DNA of 38,923 nt from Candidatus Synechococcus spongiarum SP3. GTDB lineage: Bacteria > Cyanobacteriota > Cyanobacteriia > PCC-6307 > Cyanobiaceae. Of the stretch, positions 1-33,123 are shown piece by piece; position 1 is the first letter of the stretch; each line of letters opens with the position of its first letter. The notes beneath the pieces were generated by a model. It was given only the letters and a program-made list of their open reading frames with translations. It was not told the DNA's origin and ran no database searches. The stretch is from the NCBI GenBank assembly GCA_001007665.1, contig JXQG01000011.1, positions 1-38,923 of the forward strand, written 5' to 3'. Made by a program: the position numbers and the translations under genes.

Positions 1-78
1 GTATCAGCCCTGCCTCTGCCAGATCCTCCTCGATGGTCTCAAACAGCACCTTGCCCAGTCCATGGCGCCCCGATAGGG
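1..78 (-). mobile_element. Possible IS5-family transposase fragment, cut by window edge
   Basis: Read on the reverse strand, these bases encode a peptide containing RHGLGKVLFE and EEDLAEAGL. This resembles the stretch just before the first catalytic Asp region of IS5-type transposases (pattern RHxLgxxLFxxxxxxLxxxGL). No terminal inverted repeat or target duplication can be seen, because the element leaves the window on the left. The neighbouring receptor gene loses homology at about the same point, which would fit an insertion or recombination there. The assignment rests on about 25 residues and could be wrong. Confidence 0.3.
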
Positions 79-83
79 GGCTG

Positions 84-206
84 ATGGCCGGAATGGAGCT
101 GCGCCTGGGCATCGAGAATCTTTTCAACAAGAAGTATCAAGAGCACCTCTCCAGTGATCTCGGGCGAGGCCGGACACTGCGACTCGGCATGACCCAAACC
201 TTCTGA
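84..206 (+). pseudogene. C-terminal end of a TonB-dependent receptor, truncated
   Basis: The reading frame ending at the TGA of 204-206 encodes GMELRLGIENLFNKKYQEH and finishes with a terminal Phe after MTQT. That is the classic last strands of a TonB-dependent outer-membrane receptor: the 'eNLFNKKY' box and a C-terminal aromatic residue needed for barrel assembly. Upstream of about position 84 the same frame no longer looks like receptor sequence, so the gene is either truncated by the possible transposase fragment or rearranged. A second, intact receptor gene with a similar C-terminal box starts 135 bases downstream. The remnant may therefore be the 3' end of a tandem paralogue, probably also for iron or heme uptake. 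The rest lies outside the window, if it exists at all. Confidence 0.6.
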
Positions 207-340: not shown

Positions 341-2695
341 ATGCTCAACTTCGCTCCTCTTCATGCTTCTTTCCCCATCATGACCATGGCATCTATTGGC
401 TCGTGTTTTCTCGCCAATTTTTTGCGGCAGCATTGTTTGGTTTCATCCGCCAAGCCTCTCGCTAGTGCTCTGGCTTTGGCATGCGGATGGAACCTGTTGG
501 TCTGCAGACCAGCCCAGAGCCAAGAACAGCCCAATGCACTCGACGAAGTCATTGAGCTACCGGAAATCACGGTCTTTGGTGCTGCTCGCAACGGACGCGA
601 TCCCCTTGAAACCCCCAGTGCAGTTACGGTAATTAATGGGGAAGACATGGATCGTCTTCAGCCATCAACCTATGAAGACCTGCTGATTGACGTACCTGGC
701 CTGGTCATTCAGGGTGGGCGAGGTGTAGCTCAGGAGCCCAATATCCGTGGCTTTCAAGATGAGCAAGTTGTAATTCGCGTCGATGGGGCCCGTCAGAACT
801 TTAATCTCCAGCACCGTGGCCGCTTTTTTGTAGATCCATCTCTATTAAAGCAGATTGAAGTTCTGCGGGGGGGAGCTTCCGCAATGTTCGGCTCTGGAGC
901 CCTTGGTGGTGTGATCTCCCTCGAGACCAAGGATGCCAGCGATATTCTCAAGCCCGGAGAGACATGGGGAGGGGAGGTGAACGTGGGCTTTAATACGCAA
1001 GGAAGTGAGGCATTGCGGGCAGTAACAGCGGCCTTCGCCCAGGAGAATCTGGATATGGTTGCCTTCTTCTCGCAACGTTTAATGCCAATCGATCCTGAAG
1101 ATGGTGATAAAAATCCGATTCTGGATTCTGCTGTTGATAATTTGAACGGAATTCTCAAAATGACCATGACACCAAACGATGATCATCAAGTGTTAATTGA
1201 CGGGAGAATATACACCGACGATGGCCAGGTTCCAAATACCGCAAACTTCGAATTTGATGGACCAGATGATTCTAGTAGGACAACTCTTTTGACAGACCGC
1301 CATCTTAATCATCAGCAATATAGAATCAAGTGGGACTATACACCTTTCAACAGTAAATTTATAAATCTGTCAACATTAGTCTACTATAATGAAACTCGTG
1401 TTGAAGAAAAAAGAGTAAGCGATATGAGATTTGATACGACTGAGGTGTCAACTATTGGTGTTGAGTTAACTAACTCCTCCGACGTCAATTTCGGTAGAAT
1501 GCCTGTAGCACTTGCCTATGGATTGGAGTTCTTTAAGGATGAGCATCAAGCCACTCGCAATTACGAGGACCGCCCTGAGCATCCAGATGCCCAACGCTCT
1601 TTTTATGCCGGCTTTGCGCAAGCCGATTTCAGCCTTACGCCAAAGGTTACCTTGAGTTCCGGTTTGCGCTATGATGGTTTTGTCCTTGATCCTCCAGATC
1701 CTGTAGAGGGTAACGAAAAGCTTCCACAGCGCAAGGAAAGTTCTTTATCCCCCTGGCTCGGCCTGAATTGGCAGCCCTCGGATTATCTACAGTTCTTTAT
1801 AATTACTTCCCAAGCTTTCCGAGCCCCAACCCTGACTGAAATGTATGCTCAAGGAACACATTTCCGTGGTCCATCCTTTGATGCAAATGGCGATATTGTT
1901 CTGGCATATATTCCGGTTACGCGTCCCGTTATTGGAGTAGATGGACGACCCGTTATTGGAGCGGATGGACAGCCCGAGATGGAAGTTGTCACGCGACCCG
2001 TTATTGGAGCGGATGGACGACCCGAGATGGAAATCGTTATGCGTCCCGATGGTCCCGAGATAAAAGATAATAAATTTCAACAAAACCCAGATCTCAAATC
2101 TGAAAAAGCAACTCGAATTGAAATTGGTACACGTTACCAGCGCAGCAACGTTGTGGCAGCAGGAGATGAACTATTGCTTTCTGCGAATGCTTACTATGCT
2201 GATGTTGATAACTATATTGAAGCTATTGTCAGTACTCAGACTGATAATTTTGCCACATTTACGCAGAATGTCAATGCAGAGCTATCTGGATTTGAGGCTG
2301 AGATGGCCTATGATGCCCGGTCCTGGTTCACCTCTGCCAACCTTACGGTTCCCCGTGGCAGCGAAGGGGGAAGTTCACGACAACTGGACAGTATTCCCCA
2401 GGATCGTTTCTCTGTAATCCTCGGCCTGAGACCGGATCCGAAATGGGAGATTGGCTTGCGTTCCACCGTGGCTGGCGAGAGAAAGATCGACGACAACGAG
2501 GATAACAATGCCAACACCGACAGCTTCGTGACCCTTGATCTATTTGCCAATCTCCGCCTCGGTGACGGTTTTTTATCGGATGCTCTGATTTCATTTGGTA
2601 TTGATAATATCACCAACCAAAAGTATAAACTTCATCCCAGTGTACTGCCTAGTCACGGCAGATCCGTTAAATTAAATACACAATTTACCTTCTAA
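341..2695 (+). CDS. TonB-dependent heme/hemoglobin-type outer-membrane receptor
   Basis: This is a 784-residue outer-membrane receptor. After a leader, a TonB-box-like stretch (EITVFGAA) precedes the plug domain (about residues 85-210, with IRGFQDEQVVIRVDG and IEVLRGGASAMFGSGA), followed by the beta-barrel. Heme-receptor hallmarks are present: a FRAP box at residues 493-496, a His at 507, and an NPDL version of the NPNL box at 582-585. His158 in the plug is a candidate second heme ligand by analogy with Yersinia HemR. Between the FRAP and NPNL boxes lies an unusual repeat-rich insert (about residues 527-570). The protein ends in Phe, as expected for assembly into the outer membrane. The start is uncertain: ATG at 380 (residue 14) would give a shorter leader. 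The gene is visibly richer in A+T than its neighbours, which suggests acquisition. It heads an operon with hmuT-, hmuU- and hmuV-like genes, 3 bases upstream of the next start. The exact substrate (heme, hemoglobin or another chelate) is inference. Confidence 0.88.
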   Translation: MLNFAPLHASFPIMTMASIGSCFLANFLRQHCLVSSAKPLASALALACGWNLLVCRPAQSQEQPNALDEVIELPEITVFGAARNGRDPLETPSAVTVINGEDMDRLQPSTYEDLLIDVPGLVIQGGRGVAQEPNIRGFQDEQVVIRVDGARQNFNLQHRGRFFVDPSLLKQIEVLRGGASAMFGSGALGGVISLETKDASDILKPGETWGGEVNVGFNTQGSEALRAVTAAFAQENLDMVAFFSQRLMPIDPEDGDKNPILDSAVDNLNGILKMTMTPNDDHQVLIDGRIYTDDGQVPNTANFEFDGPDDSSRTTLLTDRHLNHQQYRIKWDYTPFNSKFINLSTLVYYNETRVEEKRVSDMRFDTTEVSTIGVELTNSSDVNFGRMPVALAYGLEFFKDEHQATRNYEDRPEHPDAQRSFYAGFAQADFSLTPKVTLSSGLRYDGFVLDPPDPVEGNEKLPQRKESSLSPWLGLNWQPSDYLQFFIITSQAFRAPTLTEMYAQGTHFRGPSFDANGDIVLAYIPVTRPVIGVDGRPVIGADGQPEMEVVTRPVIGADGRPEMEIVMRPDGPEIKDNKFQQNPDLKSEKATRIEIGTRYQRSNVVAAGDELLLSANAYYADVDNYIEAIVSTQTDNFATFTQNVNAELSGFEAEMAYDARSWFTSANLTVPRGSEGGSSRQLDSIPQDRFSVILGLRPDPKWEIGLRSTVAGERKIDDNEDNNANTDSFVTLDLFANLRLGDGFLSDALISFGIDNITNQKYKLHPSVLPSHGRSVKLNTQFTF
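1922..2051 (+). repeat. Tandem 48-base repeat inside the receptor's outer loop
   Basis: Two nearly identical 48-base units encode RPVIGADGQPEMEVVT and RPVIGADGRPEMEIVM. A half unit (RPVIGVDG) precedes them and the start of another (RPDG) follows. The reading frame is kept. The array falls between the FRAP and NPNL boxes, so it should extend the large extracellular loop that holds the heme-ligand histidine. Confidence 0.85.
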
Positions 2696-2698
2696 ATC

Positions 2699-3661
2699 AT
2701 GTTGAGTATTTCTTCCATGGCACTTTCTCAATTCTTGAAAATGACTTTTCACGACAAAGCCTTTGCCGGTCCGTGGCGCCAGCTTCGGGCTAGACAATTC
2801 ATGACAGCAGCCGTCGGTGCGATGGTTGGCCTTCTACTTCATTGGCCAGCCCAGGCCCAAGACTTGACCAGGCGAGTTGTTGTCGCTGGTGGAGATCTCA
2901 CGGAAATCGTCTTTGCCCTTGATGGTGAAGATCACCTTGTCGGTATTGACTCAACATCCACATGGCCACCGCAAGCACAAGATCTTCCCCAGATTGGCTA
3001 TGTCAGGCGCCTATCCGCGGAAGGCATTCTGTCTCTGGATCCCGACTTGCTGATTGCCGCCCATGATGCCGGCCCGAATGTGGCGCTGCGGCAGCTTCGA
3101 CGGGCTGGTGTCCTGGTTGTTCAGGCGCCTGACGTGGACGGCGCCGACGGGGTGGTGGCCAAGATCGGCCTGGTGGGCGAGATTCTCAATCGAGAGGATA
3201 ACGCCCAGGCCCTGGCAGCGCAGTTTCAAGCCGATCTGGCTGCTGTGCAGGCCAAGGTGGCAACCCTGACCCGGAAACCCCGGGTGTTGTTCATTCTTTC
3301 CATCGCGGGCAATGCGCCCATCGTCGGCGGTCGCGACACTGGCGCAGACGACATCATCCGTCTTGCTGGCGCCACCAACGCGGCAGCAGCCGTCAGTGGC
3401 TACAAGCCCATGGGCCGAGAAGCCATTCTGGCGGCGCAGCCGGACGTGCTGCTGATGATGGATCGTCACGCTGAAACATTCGGTGGCGCAACGGCAATCC
3501 TGAGCCGTCCTGAATTCGCCCTCACCCCCGCCGGTCAGGCTGGTCATGCTGTGACCATGGACGGCTTGCTGCTGCTGGGCTTTGGACCCCGCACCCCCCA
3601 GGCTGTCGCCCAACTGGTTCGGGCCCTTCAGCCCCAGGCTGCTGTGGAAGCCGGTCTTTAA
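2699..3661 (+). CDS. hmuT: Periplasmic heme-binding protein of an ABC transporter (HmuT-like)
   Basis: This is a substrate-binding protein of the HmuT/HutB type, about 320 residues from this start. A signal peptide is visible as MTAAVGAMVGLLLHWPAQAQ, whose Met is residue 35. The real start may therefore be ATG at 2801, since a 34-residue extension before a normal signal peptide is unusual. The mature part shows the family's features: VVVAGGDLTEIVFALDGED, then GYVRRLSAEGILSLDPDLLI, and later TGADDIIRLAGATNAA and LSRPEFALTPAG. It should carry heme from the outer-membrane receptor to the HmuU permease. The gene begins 3 bases after the receptor stop and 21 bases before hmuU, so the four genes probably share a transcript. 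Composition is GC-rich like the host, unlike the receptor gene. Confidence 0.87.
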   Translation: MLSISSMALSQFLKMTFHDKAFAGPWRQLRARQFMTAAVGAMVGLLLHWPAQAQDLTRRVVVAGGDLTEIVFALDGEDHLVGIDSTSTWPPQAQDLPQIGYVRRLSAEGILSLDPDLLIAAHDAGPNVALRQLRRAGVLVVQAPDVDGADGVVAKIGLVGEILNREDNAQALAAQFQADLAAVQAKVATLTRKPRVLFILSIAGNAPIVGGRDTGADDIIRLAGATNAAAAVSGYKPMGREAILAAQPDVLLMMDRHAETFGGATAILSRPEFALTPAGQAGHAVTMDGLLLLGFGPRTPQAVAQLVRALQPQAAVEAGL

Positions 3662-3682
3662 TGCATGGGAGAACGTTGAAGA

Positions 3683-4720
3683 ATGGCAAATGTCCGTCGG
3701 CGCCAGCAGTTATGGATTATCTTTCTGCTGTTGGCAGTTGGTCTTTTGGCCGTGGCTGCCTTGACGTTAGGCCCTGTCGCCATCCAACCCGACCGCCTGT
3801 TGGCCACGCTTCTTGGCCAGGGGGACACGACGGAAACCGCTGTCCTTTGGGTCATTCGCTTGCCGCGGCTCCTGCTGGGTCTGGCCGCCGGCATCGCCTT
3901 GGCCCTCTCCGGTGCAGCCCTGCAAGGCATTCTGCGCAACCCTCTGGCCGATCCAGGGCTCATCGGCATCACCGCTGGCGCCTCCCTTGGCAGTGTCACG
4001 GTCATCGTTCTCGGAGAAGCAATTGCAGACTCTTTGCCCATGACACTCAGACCATGGCTCTTGCCGATTGCGGCTTTTCTGGGCGCGGCTCTGGTGATTG
4101 CGCTTGTGTTTTCCCTGGCGCAGCGCGGTGGCCAAACATCTGTGGCAACCTTGATTTTGGCCGGCGTGGCGATTAATGCCACAGCCTCTGCAATCATTGG
4201 AGGATTGGTGTATATCAGCGATGATGATCAGCTACGGGATCTGACGTTCTGGACCATGGGCGCCCTGGCGGGCGCCGGCTGGCCGTTGGTGCTCATGGCT
4301 GTTGTCCTGACCGCCCTGTCGGCTCCCTTGCTGGTGGGGCAAGCCCAGGCACTGGATATGCTGCAGTTGGGAGAGCGAGCCGCGTTTCACACGGGCCTGG
4401 ACGTGGAGCGCTGCAAGCGGCGTGTGGCGCTGGGAACAGCGATCGCTGTTGGCGCCGTCACCTCTGCCGCTGGTCCCATTGGCTTTATTGGTCTGGTGGC
4501 TCCCCACTTGGCGCGCCTCATCTTCGGACCACGCCACGCCGTTCTGCTGCCGACAGCGATCCTGATGGGAATTTTCCTGGTGCTGGCAGCAGATCTTGCG
4601 GTCCGCTTTGTGGCGCCCCCAGCGGAGCCGCCCCTGGGTTTGGCCACCAGCTTGATTGGGGGACCGTTTTTTCTTTGGCTGTTACTGCGCAGCCCGATGG
4701 ATCATCAACGAAGGAATTAA
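3683..4720 (+). CDS. hmuU: Heme ABC transporter permease (HmuU-like, FecCD family)
   Basis: This is a 345-residue multi-spanning inner-membrane permease of the FecCD/BtuC family, of normal length. The family motifs RLPRLLLGLAAGIALALSGA, QGILRNPLADPGLIGITAG and GPIGFIGLVAPHLARLIFG are all present. The last is the cytoplasmic coupling region that contacts the ATPase. It should form the inner-membrane heme channel with HmuV. The ATG follows a purine-rich stretch (GAAGA) a few bases upstream. Its TAA stop is only two bases from the probable GTG start of hmuV, so coupled translation is likely. Confidence 0.9.
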   Translation: MANVRRRQQLWIIFLLLAVGLLAVAALTLGPVAIQPDRLLATLLGQGDTTETAVLWVIRLPRLLLGLAAGIALALSGAALQGILRNPLADPGLIGITAGASLGSVTVIVLGEAIADSLPMTLRPWLLPIAAFLGAALVIALVFSLAQRGGQTSVATLILAGVAINATASAIIGGLVYISDDDQLRDLTFWTMGALAGAGWPLVLMAVVLTALSAPLLVGQAQALDMLQLGERAAFHTGLDVERCKRRVALGTAIAVGAVTSAAGPIGFIGLVAPHLARLIFGPRHAVLLPTAILMGIFLVLAADLAVRFVAPPAEPPLGLATSLIGGPFFLWLLLRSPMDHQRRN

Positions 4721-4722
4721 TT

Positions 4723-5505
4723 GTGCTGGAAGCTGCCGATGTCTGCGTGATGCGGGGCCGACGGACCCTTTTGAAGGGGATCAACCTGCGGCTGCAGCCC
4801 GGGCAGATCACCGCTGTGATTGGCCCCAACGGTGCTGGCAAGTCAACGGTGTTGGCCTGTCTCTCGGGAGCATTGATTCCCGTGCGCGGCACACTCCGAT
4901 TGGCCGGGGCGTGCCTGCATCAGTTGTCTGCAGCTGAGTTGGGGCGCCGCCGTGCTGTTCTTGAACAATCGCCAATCGCCCCTGCCGGATTCACGCTGAA
5001 TGCGCTGGTGGAGTTGGGAATCCCTTGCCAGGTGCCGCCGTGGCAAGCCCGGGCGCTGGTTGGTCGGGCCCTCACGGCTGTGGGCCTGGCTGAGCACGCT
5101 CGTCAGACGATTGATGTCTTGTCGGGCGGTGGACAACAGCGGGCCCATTTGGCTCGTGTTCTGGCGCAACTGTGGGCAGGGCAGGCCCTGGGTGGTGGAC
5201 ATTGGCTTCTTTTGGATGAGCCCACAGCCCACCTGGACCTGGCCCACCAGGCCGCTGTCATCCGCATTGCCCACCAGGCGGCAGCGGCAGGGGCCGGGGT
5301 GGTGGTGGTGGTCCATGACCTGACCGTTGCCGCTGCTCTGGCAAGTCAAGTTGTCCTGATGCAAGACGGTTGTGTGGCGGCCTGGGGACCGGCAGACCAA
5401 CTCTTGCAGCCCATGGTTCTAGAGCCAGTCTATGGTCTGCCCCTGTTGCGCAAGGAACCCACAGCCGGAAGAGCGGCAATCATCCCCCTCTTCCCTGTCC
5501 GGTAA
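4723..5505 (+). CDS. hmuV: Heme ABC transporter ATP-binding protein (HmuV-like)
   Basis: This ATPase subunit is 260 residues from the GTG at 4723. An AAGGA Shine-Dalgarno at 4711-4715, seven bases upstream, favours this start over an in-frame ATG at 4675, which would overlap hmuU by 46 bases. Walker A is GPNGAGKST (residues 34-42). The ABC signature reads LSGGGQQRAHLARVLAQLW, with Gly where HmuV proteins usually have Glu. Walker B is LLLDEPT, followed by the HLDL D-loop and the VVVVVHDL switch His. It should power heme import through HmuU. It is the last gene of the operon and is followed by a strong hairpin. Confidence 0.9.
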   Translation: MLEAADVCVMRGRRTLLKGINLRLQPGQITAVIGPNGAGKSTVLACLSGALIPVRGTLRLAGACLHQLSAAELGRRRAVLEQSPIAPAGFTLNALVELGIPCQVPPWQARALVGRALTAVGLAEHARQTIDVLSGGGQQRAHLARVLAQLWAGQALGGGHWLLLDEPTAHLDLAHQAAVIRIAHQAAAAGAGVVVVVHDLTVAAALASQVVLMQDGCVAAWGPADQLLQPMVLEPVYGLPLLRKEPTAGRAAIIPLFPVR

Positions 5506-18050: not shown

Positions 18051-18764
18051 ATGTTCACTCACTTCCTGGATAAGCTCGCCGATGACGTCCAGGTGCGCTC
18101 TGGCGCTCCCCTGCACCTGCCCAAGGAGTTGGCGGAATGCCGCTCCACCAGGAAGGAAGGGGTGATTCGCAGTTGGGCCTGGTCTTTGCCGGGAATTCGC
18201 CGCCTGCGGGCCACCCGACTGGATGCGGGGAACGTGCTTCAGGTGTTCAACGCGGTGGCCTTCCCGGAAACGGACCGTCAGCAACCCTTGTTGGGCATTG
18301 ACCTTTTGCAATTCGGGTTGCGCGACAAGCTGGTGGCAGTAATGGATTTCCAGCCCTTACGTCAGGATCCCGACTACCTGGAGCACTACATGGGGGGGCT
18401 TAAATCCCTGCAGCAACGCTTCCCGGCCTTTGCCATGGGGGAAGACATGCGCCGCTACGACGCCAATCGCTACTTTTCCCCATGGCTGCTTTTTGCCCGC
18501 GGTCCGGCGACAGAGCTGAAGAAGAGCCTCAGGAACGCCTTTGAGCTACTGCTGAGCGCCTACTGGACACTTCACGATGCCGAGCAGCCCGACCCCCGCC
18601 TGCAGGAGGAGGTGGAAGCGCTGCAGAGCGACTATGCCCGCTACAGCACCCAAAAGGACCCGGCCCATGGTCTCTTTGCCAGCTATTTCGGGAAAAGCTG
18701 GGCGGATCGGTTCCTCCATGAGTTCCTGTTTCCTGAGTCCATTTCCACCAAGACCACCCCATGA
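18051..18764 (+). CDS. pebA: 15,16-dihydrobiliverdin:ferredoxin oxidoreductase
   Basis: This 237-residue ferredoxin-dependent bilin reductase reduces biliverdin IXalpha to 15,16-dihydrobiliverdin. Family features: a conserved SWAWSLPGIRRLRATRLD region, ending in GNVLQVFNAVAFP; PLLGIDLLQFG; and the segment MGEDMRRYDANRYFSPWLLF with the central Asp/Tyr/Phe residues. The C-terminal signature is AHGLFASYFGKSWADRFLHE. Its stop overlaps the pebB start by four bases (ATGA, 18761-18764), the usual coupled pebA-pebB order, which supports channelling of the intermediate to PebB. Confidence 0.93.
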   Translation: MFTHFLDKLADDVQVRSGAPLHLPKELAECRSTRKEGVIRSWAWSLPGIRRLRATRLDAGNVLQVFNAVAFPETDRQQPLLGIDLLQFGLRDKLVAVMDFQPLRQDPDYLEHYMGGLKSLQQRFPAFAMGEDMRRYDANRYFSPWLLFARGPATELKKSLRNAFELLLSAYWTLHDAEQPDPRLQEEVEALQSDYARYSTQKDPAHGLFASYFGKSWADRFLHEFLFPESISTKTTP

Positions 18765-19504
18765 CCTGGCTCTGGCAGCCCTATCTGGACCACGCCCGGC
18801 AACGCCTGCAAGCGCGGCTGCCCGACCTGCGGCCCTACCCCATCCCGGAAGGCTTTGGGGAGCGCCGGGCAGAAACGGGCTCAAAGGCCCGTCCTGTTGA
18901 GGTAGTGACCCGCAGCTGGGCGGTGCAGGCTCGCGGCATCCGCCAGGCGCGGGCCGCCTGCGTGGCCGCCGACCCCGTCCCCCAGGTGCTGAACCTTGTC
19001 ATCAACCCTGACCACAACTATGAGTTACCGTTTTTCGGGGCGGATCTGGTGACCCTGCCGGGTGGGCACTTGCTGGCCCTTGACTTGCAGCCCGTTCTCA
19101 AGCAGGACGAGCGCCACACAGCCCCAGTCTGGGAGCGACTGGAGCCCGTCTTCCAGCGCTGGCGCCAGCGTCTGCCGGATGGGGGGCCCATCCCGGCGGA
19201 GGCACAGCCCTATTTTTCCGACGGGTTCCTCTGGACCCGCCTCCCCCTCAGCGAAACCACCCTGCTGGAGGCGGCGGTCTTCCCGGCGTTTCAGGAGTAT
19301 CTGGAACTGTACCTGGATTTGGTGGCCGCGGCAGAGCCGGTGCGGCCCGAGCGCGCCCGGCAACTCCTGGCGGGACAGCGGCGCTACACTGACTACCGTG
19401 CCGAGAAGGACCCGGCCCGAGGGATGCTCAGCCGCTTCTATGGTGCGGAGTGGACCGAGGCTTACATTAACGACTTCCTGTTTGACCTGCCCCCGGTCGC
19501 CTGA
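18761..19504 (+). CDS. pebB: Phycoerythrobilin:ferredoxin oxidoreductase
   Basis: This 247-residue bilin reductase converts 15,16-dihydrobiliverdin to 3Z-phycoerythrobilin. Matching features are the N-terminal IPEGFGERRAETGSK, NLVINPDHNYELPFFGADL, YFSDGFLWTRLPLSE, and the C-terminal DPARGMLSRFYGAEWTEAYI. The internal Asn-Pro-Asp (INPD) carries a conserved acidic residue near the bilin pocket. It is translationally coupled to pebA by a 4-base overlap. A Nif11-domain gene follows after 39 bases on the same strand and may be read through from here. Confidence 0.93.
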   Translation: MTWLWQPYLDHARQRLQARLPDLRPYPIPEGFGERRAETGSKARPVEVVTRSWAVQARGIRQARAACVAADPVPQVLNLVINPDHNYELPFFGADLVTLPGGHLLALDLQPVLKQDERHTAPVWERLEPVFQRWRQRLPDGGPIPAEAQPYFSDGFLWTRLPLSETTLLEAAVFPAFQEYLELYLDLVAAAEPVRPERARQLLAGQRRYTDYRAEKDPARGMLSRFYGAEWTEAYINDFLFDLPPVA

Positions 19505-32490: not shown

Positions 32491-32634
32491 GGTGACTCCC
32501 ACATTGGCCCCACCCGCAAGTGATCTGGCTCACGCACTGGGCGCTTCACGCAAGGCGACTGGCCCGATAGATGCTACAAGTAAACTGCTGCACTATGGCA
32601 AGGCTATAAATGATAGGGAACGAAATGATGCGTG

Positions 32635-33123
32635 ATGCCTAGGACCATTGTCGCTGAGGATGTTCCACCTCGGAGCAAGCGATCAAGTTACCCGCAACCT
32701 TTCCAGAGCCGCATGGCTTGCAGGGAGAAAAGGGCACTGGGCGATGTCTTTGGTCTGAAGAATTTCGGTGTCAACCTCACCAGGATTGCCCCCGGCGGCA
32801 TGTCAGCGCTGATGCACAGCCATAGTCGTCAGGATGAACTGGTTTATGTGCTGGAAGGGGCACCCACACTGGTGACTCCGTCTGACGATGCCCAACTCGG
32901 GCCAGGCATGTGTGCCGGATTTCCGGCCAGGGGCGAGGCACACCACATTGTCAACCGCACATCAAGAGACATTCTGATTCTGGAAATTGGCGATCGGAGC
33001 GACGGTGATGAGGCCAGCTATCCGCAGGACGATATCCATGCCGCCATGGGGACGGATGGTCAATGGAGCTTTACCCATAAGGATGGAACACCTTACAAAA
33101 ACGATGGGAGATCTGTCCCGTAA
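32635..33123 (+). CDS. Cupin-domain protein
   Basis: The protein has 162 residues from ATG 32635, with a GTG directly before it. It is a single small cupin barrel. Motif 1 reads MHSHSRQDELVYVLEG, with two His and a Glu placed as metal ligands. Motif 2 reads LGPGMCAGFPARGEAHHIVN, with the second His pair. The tail is the Asp/Gly-rich GDRSDGDEASYPQDDIHAAM, then WSFTHKDGTPY. Such proteins bind a divalent metal and range from isomerases to sensors; the substrate cannot be told. It is divergent from the methyltransferase gene and has no operon partner. Confidence 0.85.
   Translation: MPRTIVAEDVPPRSKRSSYPQPFQSRMACREKRALGDVFGLKNFGVNLTRIAPGGMSALMHSHSRQDELVYVLEGAPTLVTPSDDAQLGPGMCAGFPARGEAHHIVNRTSRDILILEIGDRSDGDEASYPQDDIHAAMGTDGQWSFTHKDGTPYKNDGRSVP

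Follow-up and report, generated by a model that had tools for sequence, protein, structure and literature searches.

A putative alphaproteobacterial-type hmuRTUV heme-uptake operon in the sponge-symbiont lineage of Synechococcus

Results

A four-gene operon in a phycoerythrin-bearing cyanobacterium

At one edge of a contig of Candidatus Synechococcus spongiarum SP3 we identified four genes that we interpret, with a probability of about 0.88, as an hmuRTUV heme-uptake operon of the alphaproteobacterial (Roseobacter-like) type that an ancestor of the sponge-symbiont lineage of Synechococcus gained horizontally. Within the window, i.e., the whole stretch of 38,923 nucleotides that was analysed, the operon comprises four open reading frames at 341-5505, all on the plus strand and with their positions read off the window: an hmuR-type TonB-dependent heme receptor with plug and barrel (341-2695, 784 aa), an hmuT-type periplasmic heme-binding protein (2699-3661, 320 aa), an hmuU-type permease of the FecCD family (3683-4720, 345 aa), and an hmuV-type ATPase (4675-5505, 276 aa), the start codon of which is uncertain. 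The genes are separated by 3 bp and 21 bp, and the last two overlap by 46 bp, which agrees with the near absence of gaps described in an earlier reading of this DNA from its letters alone (the sequence-only reading). Pfam domains far above chance (Plug and TonB_dep_Rec, Peripla_BP_2, FecCD, and ABC_tran) confirm the receptor and the hmuT-, hmuU-, and hmuV-like genes, which lie exactly where that reading had put them. Its description of the operon as complete holds for transport across the outer and inner membranes only, as hmuS is absent, and tonB/exbBD and heme oxygenase are encoded on other contigs.

The cyanobacterial, phycoerythrin-bearing background proposed for the operon is real, since the same contig encodes, within the window, two ferredoxin-dependent bilin reductases (pebA/pebB-like, 18051-19504, plus strand) of the pathway that consumes the heme oxygenase product, CpeS, and a phycobilisome linker, as well as rnpB, tRNA-Arg, rnc, and polA. 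The source genome (G000) is 2.13 Mb in 117 contigs, 96% complete and 0.1% contaminated, and our genome-wide statements come from single-family searches. We assign the genome to the genus that includes the sponge symbiont Ca. Synechococcus spongiarum, from the matches of its receptor and from kinship labels that the search tool supplies. The closest named records of the receptor are from Synechococcus sp. SB0662_bin_14, a metagenome-assembled genome (73% identity), and Ca. Synechococcus spongiarum isolate 1 (85% identity, over a partial sequence), which fits the host habitat that the sequence-only reading had guessed.

Two scraps of genes lie upstream of the operon, at the contig edge. One of these (90-206, plus strand, 38 aa, with its upstream part missing) is by BLAST the C-terminal end of a second TonB-dependent receptor that resembles Paracoccus and Phaeobacter heme receptors, and a Pfam search with these 38 residues gave no match. 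The other (1-70, minus strand, RHGLGKVLFETIEEDLAEAGLI) is possibly part of an IS5-like transposase, from a weak match (E about 2) in which both matched proteins are annotated as IS5 transposase. The end of contig C24 in the related genome G188 (L036 7807-9426) encodes the N-terminal 540 residues of a receptor of this kind, which share 47% identity with a heme receptor from Phyllobacterium, and from these sequences the ancestor may have carried two heme receptors in tandem. Upstream of the receptor gene in G008 and of its relic in G133 stands a divergent gene for a small cupin-like protein (L029 4259-4780 and L033 7201-7620, respectively), with 81% identity between the two species; none was seen adjoining the operon in the window, and the cupin encoded at 32632-33123 of the window is a different one.

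The receptor and the transporter are probably of the heme type

The receptor passes both NCBI heme-receptor models, with 426 bits for TIGR01785 (cut-off 317) and 339 bits for TIGR01786 (cut-off 324), and its best match in the PDB is ShuA (3.8e-44). It contains a TonB-box-like motif, ELPEITV, at residues 72-78, and the two boxes named in the sequence-only reading are present, with FRAP at residues 493-496 and the NPNL box in the form NPDL at residues 582-585. Alignment demonstrated that His158 of the plug and His507 of loop 7 correspond to His86 and His420 of ChuA/ShuA, both of which are essential in ChuA for the use of hemoglobin (PMC12241658). Both histidines are kept in three members of the genus (G008 and G063 among them), in G049, which belongs to another genus of the same family, and in the receptor of Tateyamaria, and neither occurs in the remaining cyanobacterial receptors of the alignment or in BtuB, FhuA, or FecA. 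Translation of the receptor may begin downstream of its annotated start, as the relative in G008 starts about 26 residues later. An AlphaFold2 model built from three sequences reached a mean pLDDT of 26.5 and was set aside. A second, divergent TonB-dependent receptor of 805 aa, which does not have the heme histidines, is encoded on contig C46 of the source genome (L035 2884-5301). We also observed that the GC3 of the receptor gene is 0.43-0.47 in four species (341-2695 of the window; L029, L030, and L032), with 0.60-0.75 in the adjoining T-U-V genes, a difference for which a separate origin or a local mutation bias could account.

The best PDB matches of the hmuT-type protein are heme-binding proteins, led by a BhuT-type protein (8e-55) and HmuT (8e-51) and including HutB and ShuT; among our references it matches only heme-type binding proteins, and no FhuD, FecB, or PCC 7002 protein. 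Tyr101 of this protein is the conserved tyrosine ligand of HmuT and ShuT, present in 12 of the 13 proteins aligned. Its relatives on plasmids of Paracoccus, Phaeobacter, Sulfitobacter, Phyllobacterium, and Gemmobacter adjoin genes for ChuX/HutX or for hemin degradation. The permease matches hemin permeases in the PDB, of BhuU type (1e-73) and HmuU (4e-67), and the only PDB match of the ATPase below 1e-30 is HmuV, its best NCBIfam model being the heme ATPase model at 240 bits, below the cut-off of 261.

Phylogeny points to marine alphaproteobacteria

Placement of the receptor or the ABC genes in a cobalamin or siderophore clade, the result that the sequence-only reading had named as contradicting it, did not occur, and heme uptake is thereby supported: receptor, permease, and ATPase all fall with alphaproteobacterial heme systems. 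The receptor forms a 100/100 clade with a Tateyamaria plasmid receptor, the closest found at 41% identity, nested among heme receptors of proteobacteria (95/98), and the cyanobacterial receptors form a separate 100/99 clade, a grouping with which was rejected by the AU test (p = 5e-8). For the permease and the ATPase, the trees show clades with alphaproteobacterial hmuU (92/94) and with hmuV (85/96), respectively, and both results are weaker than that for the receptor. These trees suggest that the operon was most likely gained from marine alphaproteobacteria, a donor group represented among our references solely by plasmid records.

The operon is rare in the family and lost or decayed in much of the genus

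Among 300 sampled genomes of the family, the operon occurs only in the source genus and one other (2 of the 59 genera). It was thus unexpected for the family, as had been claimed, and less so for these symbionts, in which related genes have already been reported as siderophore transport (PMC6506613). Three of the ten species of the genus contain intact T-U-V genes (G000, G008, and G188, with the receptor of G188 cut by a contig end). In G063 the receptor remains, U and V are gone, and T is broken; G133 and G091 contain relics, and no operon was detected in four further species. With loss or decay in 7 of 10 members, some of whose genomes are incomplete, the operon does not appear to be essential to the lifestyle. 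Where the operon genes are intact, dN/dS within the genus is 0.13-0.35, i.e., they are under purifying selection. The genes that flank the operon differ among the species examined.

TonB motor, heme degradation, and other iron systems

The partners that the sequence-only reading proposed to look for elsewhere in the genome are all present, namely an exbB-exbD-exbD-tonB cluster on contig C67 and one bilin-type heme oxygenase (4.9e-84) on contig C16. The same exbB-exbD-exbD-tonB order stands divergent from an intact receptor-T-U-V operon in G049, and the ExbB type of the source genome was found in only 2 of the 59 sampled genera, the same two that contain the operon. Eight of the ten species of the genus have tonB, the exceptions being G091 and G164.

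A heme-degrading enzyme (HmuS or a heme oxygenase), which is usually though not universally linked to hmu systems, is not linked to this operon, and no hmuS was found in the operon, the window, or the other cyanobacterial stretches examined. One HmuS-like match, in L033 (E about 1e-4), runs antisense inside an arginyl-tRNA synthetase-like open reading frame and was rejected. A scan for Fur boxes upstream of the operon in four species gave nothing above shuffled sequences. Two further results favor heme as an iron source. Searches of the source genome found no FeoB, and no iron-binding protein of family PF13343, taken as a marker for FutA, was found in six of the seven genus members tested, the source included; the absence of PF13343, although informative within the genus, is weak evidence, as about a third of the good genomes of the family also have no match to it. 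The one member with such a protein, G091, has no tonB and a decayed operon (L034). This may reflect a swap of iron systems, but it is a single case, and PF13343 is also missing from many genomes of the family beyond this genus.

Discussion

A proposed path from host heme to bilins

The genes, their order, the ligand residues, the phylogeny, the presence of the partners, and purifying selection are established, and we infer heme as the substrate in life, heme oxygenase as its sink, and the sponge or its microbes as its source. The receptor would catch heme, or strip a hemoprotein of it, through His507 of loop 7, which would hand the heme over to His158 of the plug, and the plug would be opened by TonB-ExbB-ExbD. 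HmuT would then bind the heme through Tyr101, and HmuUV would pump it into the cell, where the heme oxygenase of the bilin pathway would free the iron and yield biliverdin, which PebA and PebB, encoded in the window, would turn into phycoerythrobilin. HmuS would not be needed in such a pathway, because the bilin-pathway heme oxygenase would replace it. In Anabaena, heme and bilin genes change their expression in response to external heme (PMC10792254). The sponge host is the likely source of heme, given that this genus includes a sponge symbiont.

Other substrates and contamination

We take COG4558 to be the hemin-binding ChuT group. Along with COG0609 and COG1629, it was found enriched in sponge Synechococcus by Burgsdorf et al. 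in 2019, who called these genes siderophore-mediated iron transport and did not mention heme (PMC6506613). If that label were right for the operon studied here, the receptor would take up a ferri-siderophore made by other microbes of the sponge, and FecCD permeases and TonB receptors do often serve siderophores. Free-living picocyanobacteria of the same family also have clusters of a TonB receptor with an ABC transporter, and Hogle et al. in 2022 considered these receptors to be of siderophore type and not for heme, as the clusters contain no heme oxygenase (PMC9122953). This argument does not transfer to the operon in the window because its receptor differs in clade and ligands. The sampled picocyanobacterial TonB receptors fall in a different clade, grouping with FhuA was rejected (AU p = 1e-4), and the source ExbB type had no match at E 1e-15 in the genomes with these siderophore clusters. 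The receptor reaches only 156 bits on the siderophore-receptor model (cut-off 223.5), yet exceeds both heme cut-offs, and it contains the two heme histidines and is paired with an HmuT-type binding protein. We consider siderophore uptake improbable. The genes reported in 2019 are likely the same system, based on a shared clade and gene set, and heme would fit them better than the siderophore label. It is possible that prior genome papers on Ca. S. spongiarum already contain a heme annotation.

Uptake of vitamin B12, or of another corrinoid or tetrapyrrole, has in its favor that BtuC is the best NCBIfam model of the permease, at 230 bits and so below the cut-off of 334; in the PDB set, however, BtuC (3e-43) is far behind the HmuU-type hemin permeases, BtuF matches the binding protein at only 1e-11, about 40 orders of magnitude behind the HmuT-type proteins, and grouping of the receptor with BtuB was rejected (AU p = 1e-5), leaving this substrate very improbable. 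Alphaproteobacterial contamination, introduced during binning or assembly, would account for the affinity of the genes, their position at a contig edge beside a possible insertion sequence scrap, and the GC3 of the receptor (0.44, compared to 0.60-0.81 in other genes). Against this, the contig runs on into rnc, polA, rnpB, pebA/B, and cpeS, other assemblies of the genus, one of them a named Ca. S. spongiarum record, encode the same operon genes with 73-93% identity, and sister species contain decayed copies; based on the gene content of the contig and on these relatives, we rejected contamination, to which we assign next to no probability.

Relationship to known heme-uptake systems

As a heme-uptake operon, the locus resembles ChuA-ChuTU-HmuV of E. 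coli, HmuRSTUV of Yersinia, and BhuTUV of Burkholderia in the histidines of plug and loop 7 and in the FRAP/NPNL boxes, and shares with hmu/shu/chu systems the HmuT tyrosine, a single permease, and a single ATPase. It differs in that it contains no hmuS, that 8-residue repeats lengthen the loop 7 spacing from 24 to 85 residues, and that its host is an oxygenic phototroph. In the Roseobacter Ruegeria TM1040, function of an hmu cluster was shown by mutation, with a receptor mutant growing poorly on heme, and the exbB-exbD-exbD-tonB genes divergent from the operon in G049 resemble this cluster (PMC5225302). The hmuTUV genes of Roseobacter clusters fall in the same broad clade as those in the window, and the marine, host-associated lifestyle is also shared; in the window, unlike in these clusters, the receptor is co-directional with hmuTUV and hmuS is absent, and the aligned Phaeobacter and Sulfitobacter receptors do not contain the two histidines (TM1040 itself was outside the alignment).

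Heme uptake in cyanobacteria has been shown with mutants for HutA1 and HutA2 of Anabaena (PMC10792254), which were outside our alignment. The two histidines are missing from the plasmid receptor of PCC 7002 and related cyanobacterial receptors, which form a clade of their own, a pattern that suggests the operon studied here was acquired independently of them. On the sequence evidence, the observation made by the sequence-only reading is correct and well supported; the mechanism is a known one, found here in an unusual host. For a sponge symbiont that is widespread globally, the operon would identify a specific nutrient that could be drawn from the host, and it would correct the published siderophore reading of genes that are probably the same as these. 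The operon would also represent transfer of a whole outer- and inner-membrane uptake system, apparently including the TonB motor, from alphaproteobacteria to picocyanobacteria, followed by loss species by species.

A tandem repeat in loop 7 of the receptor

Loop 7 of the receptor is lengthened by a 24-bp in-frame tandem repeat (1925-2024, plus strand) encoding PVIGADGR, and this array lies between the heme histidine His507 and the NPDL box. The length of the loop differs in every species compared: FRAP and the NPNL box are 24 residues apart in ChuA and 28 apart in Tateyamaria, with 38 residues between them in G049, 51 in G063, 77 in G008, and 85 in the source receptor. Loops 7 and 8 of ChuA bind hemoglobin (PMC12241658). 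Variation in repeat number of this surface receptor is possible. A more speculative proposal, and one we hold to be rather doubtful, is that heme would be a main iron supply for part of the sponge-symbiont Synechococcus lineage, over inorganic or siderophore iron, that the 24-bp minisatellite would tune loop 7 to hemoproteins of the host or its symbionts by generating repeat-number variants, and that imported heme would feed both iron and phycobilin pools. The receptor contig of G188 ends within the repeat array, which could mean that the repeat itself caused a break in the assembly.
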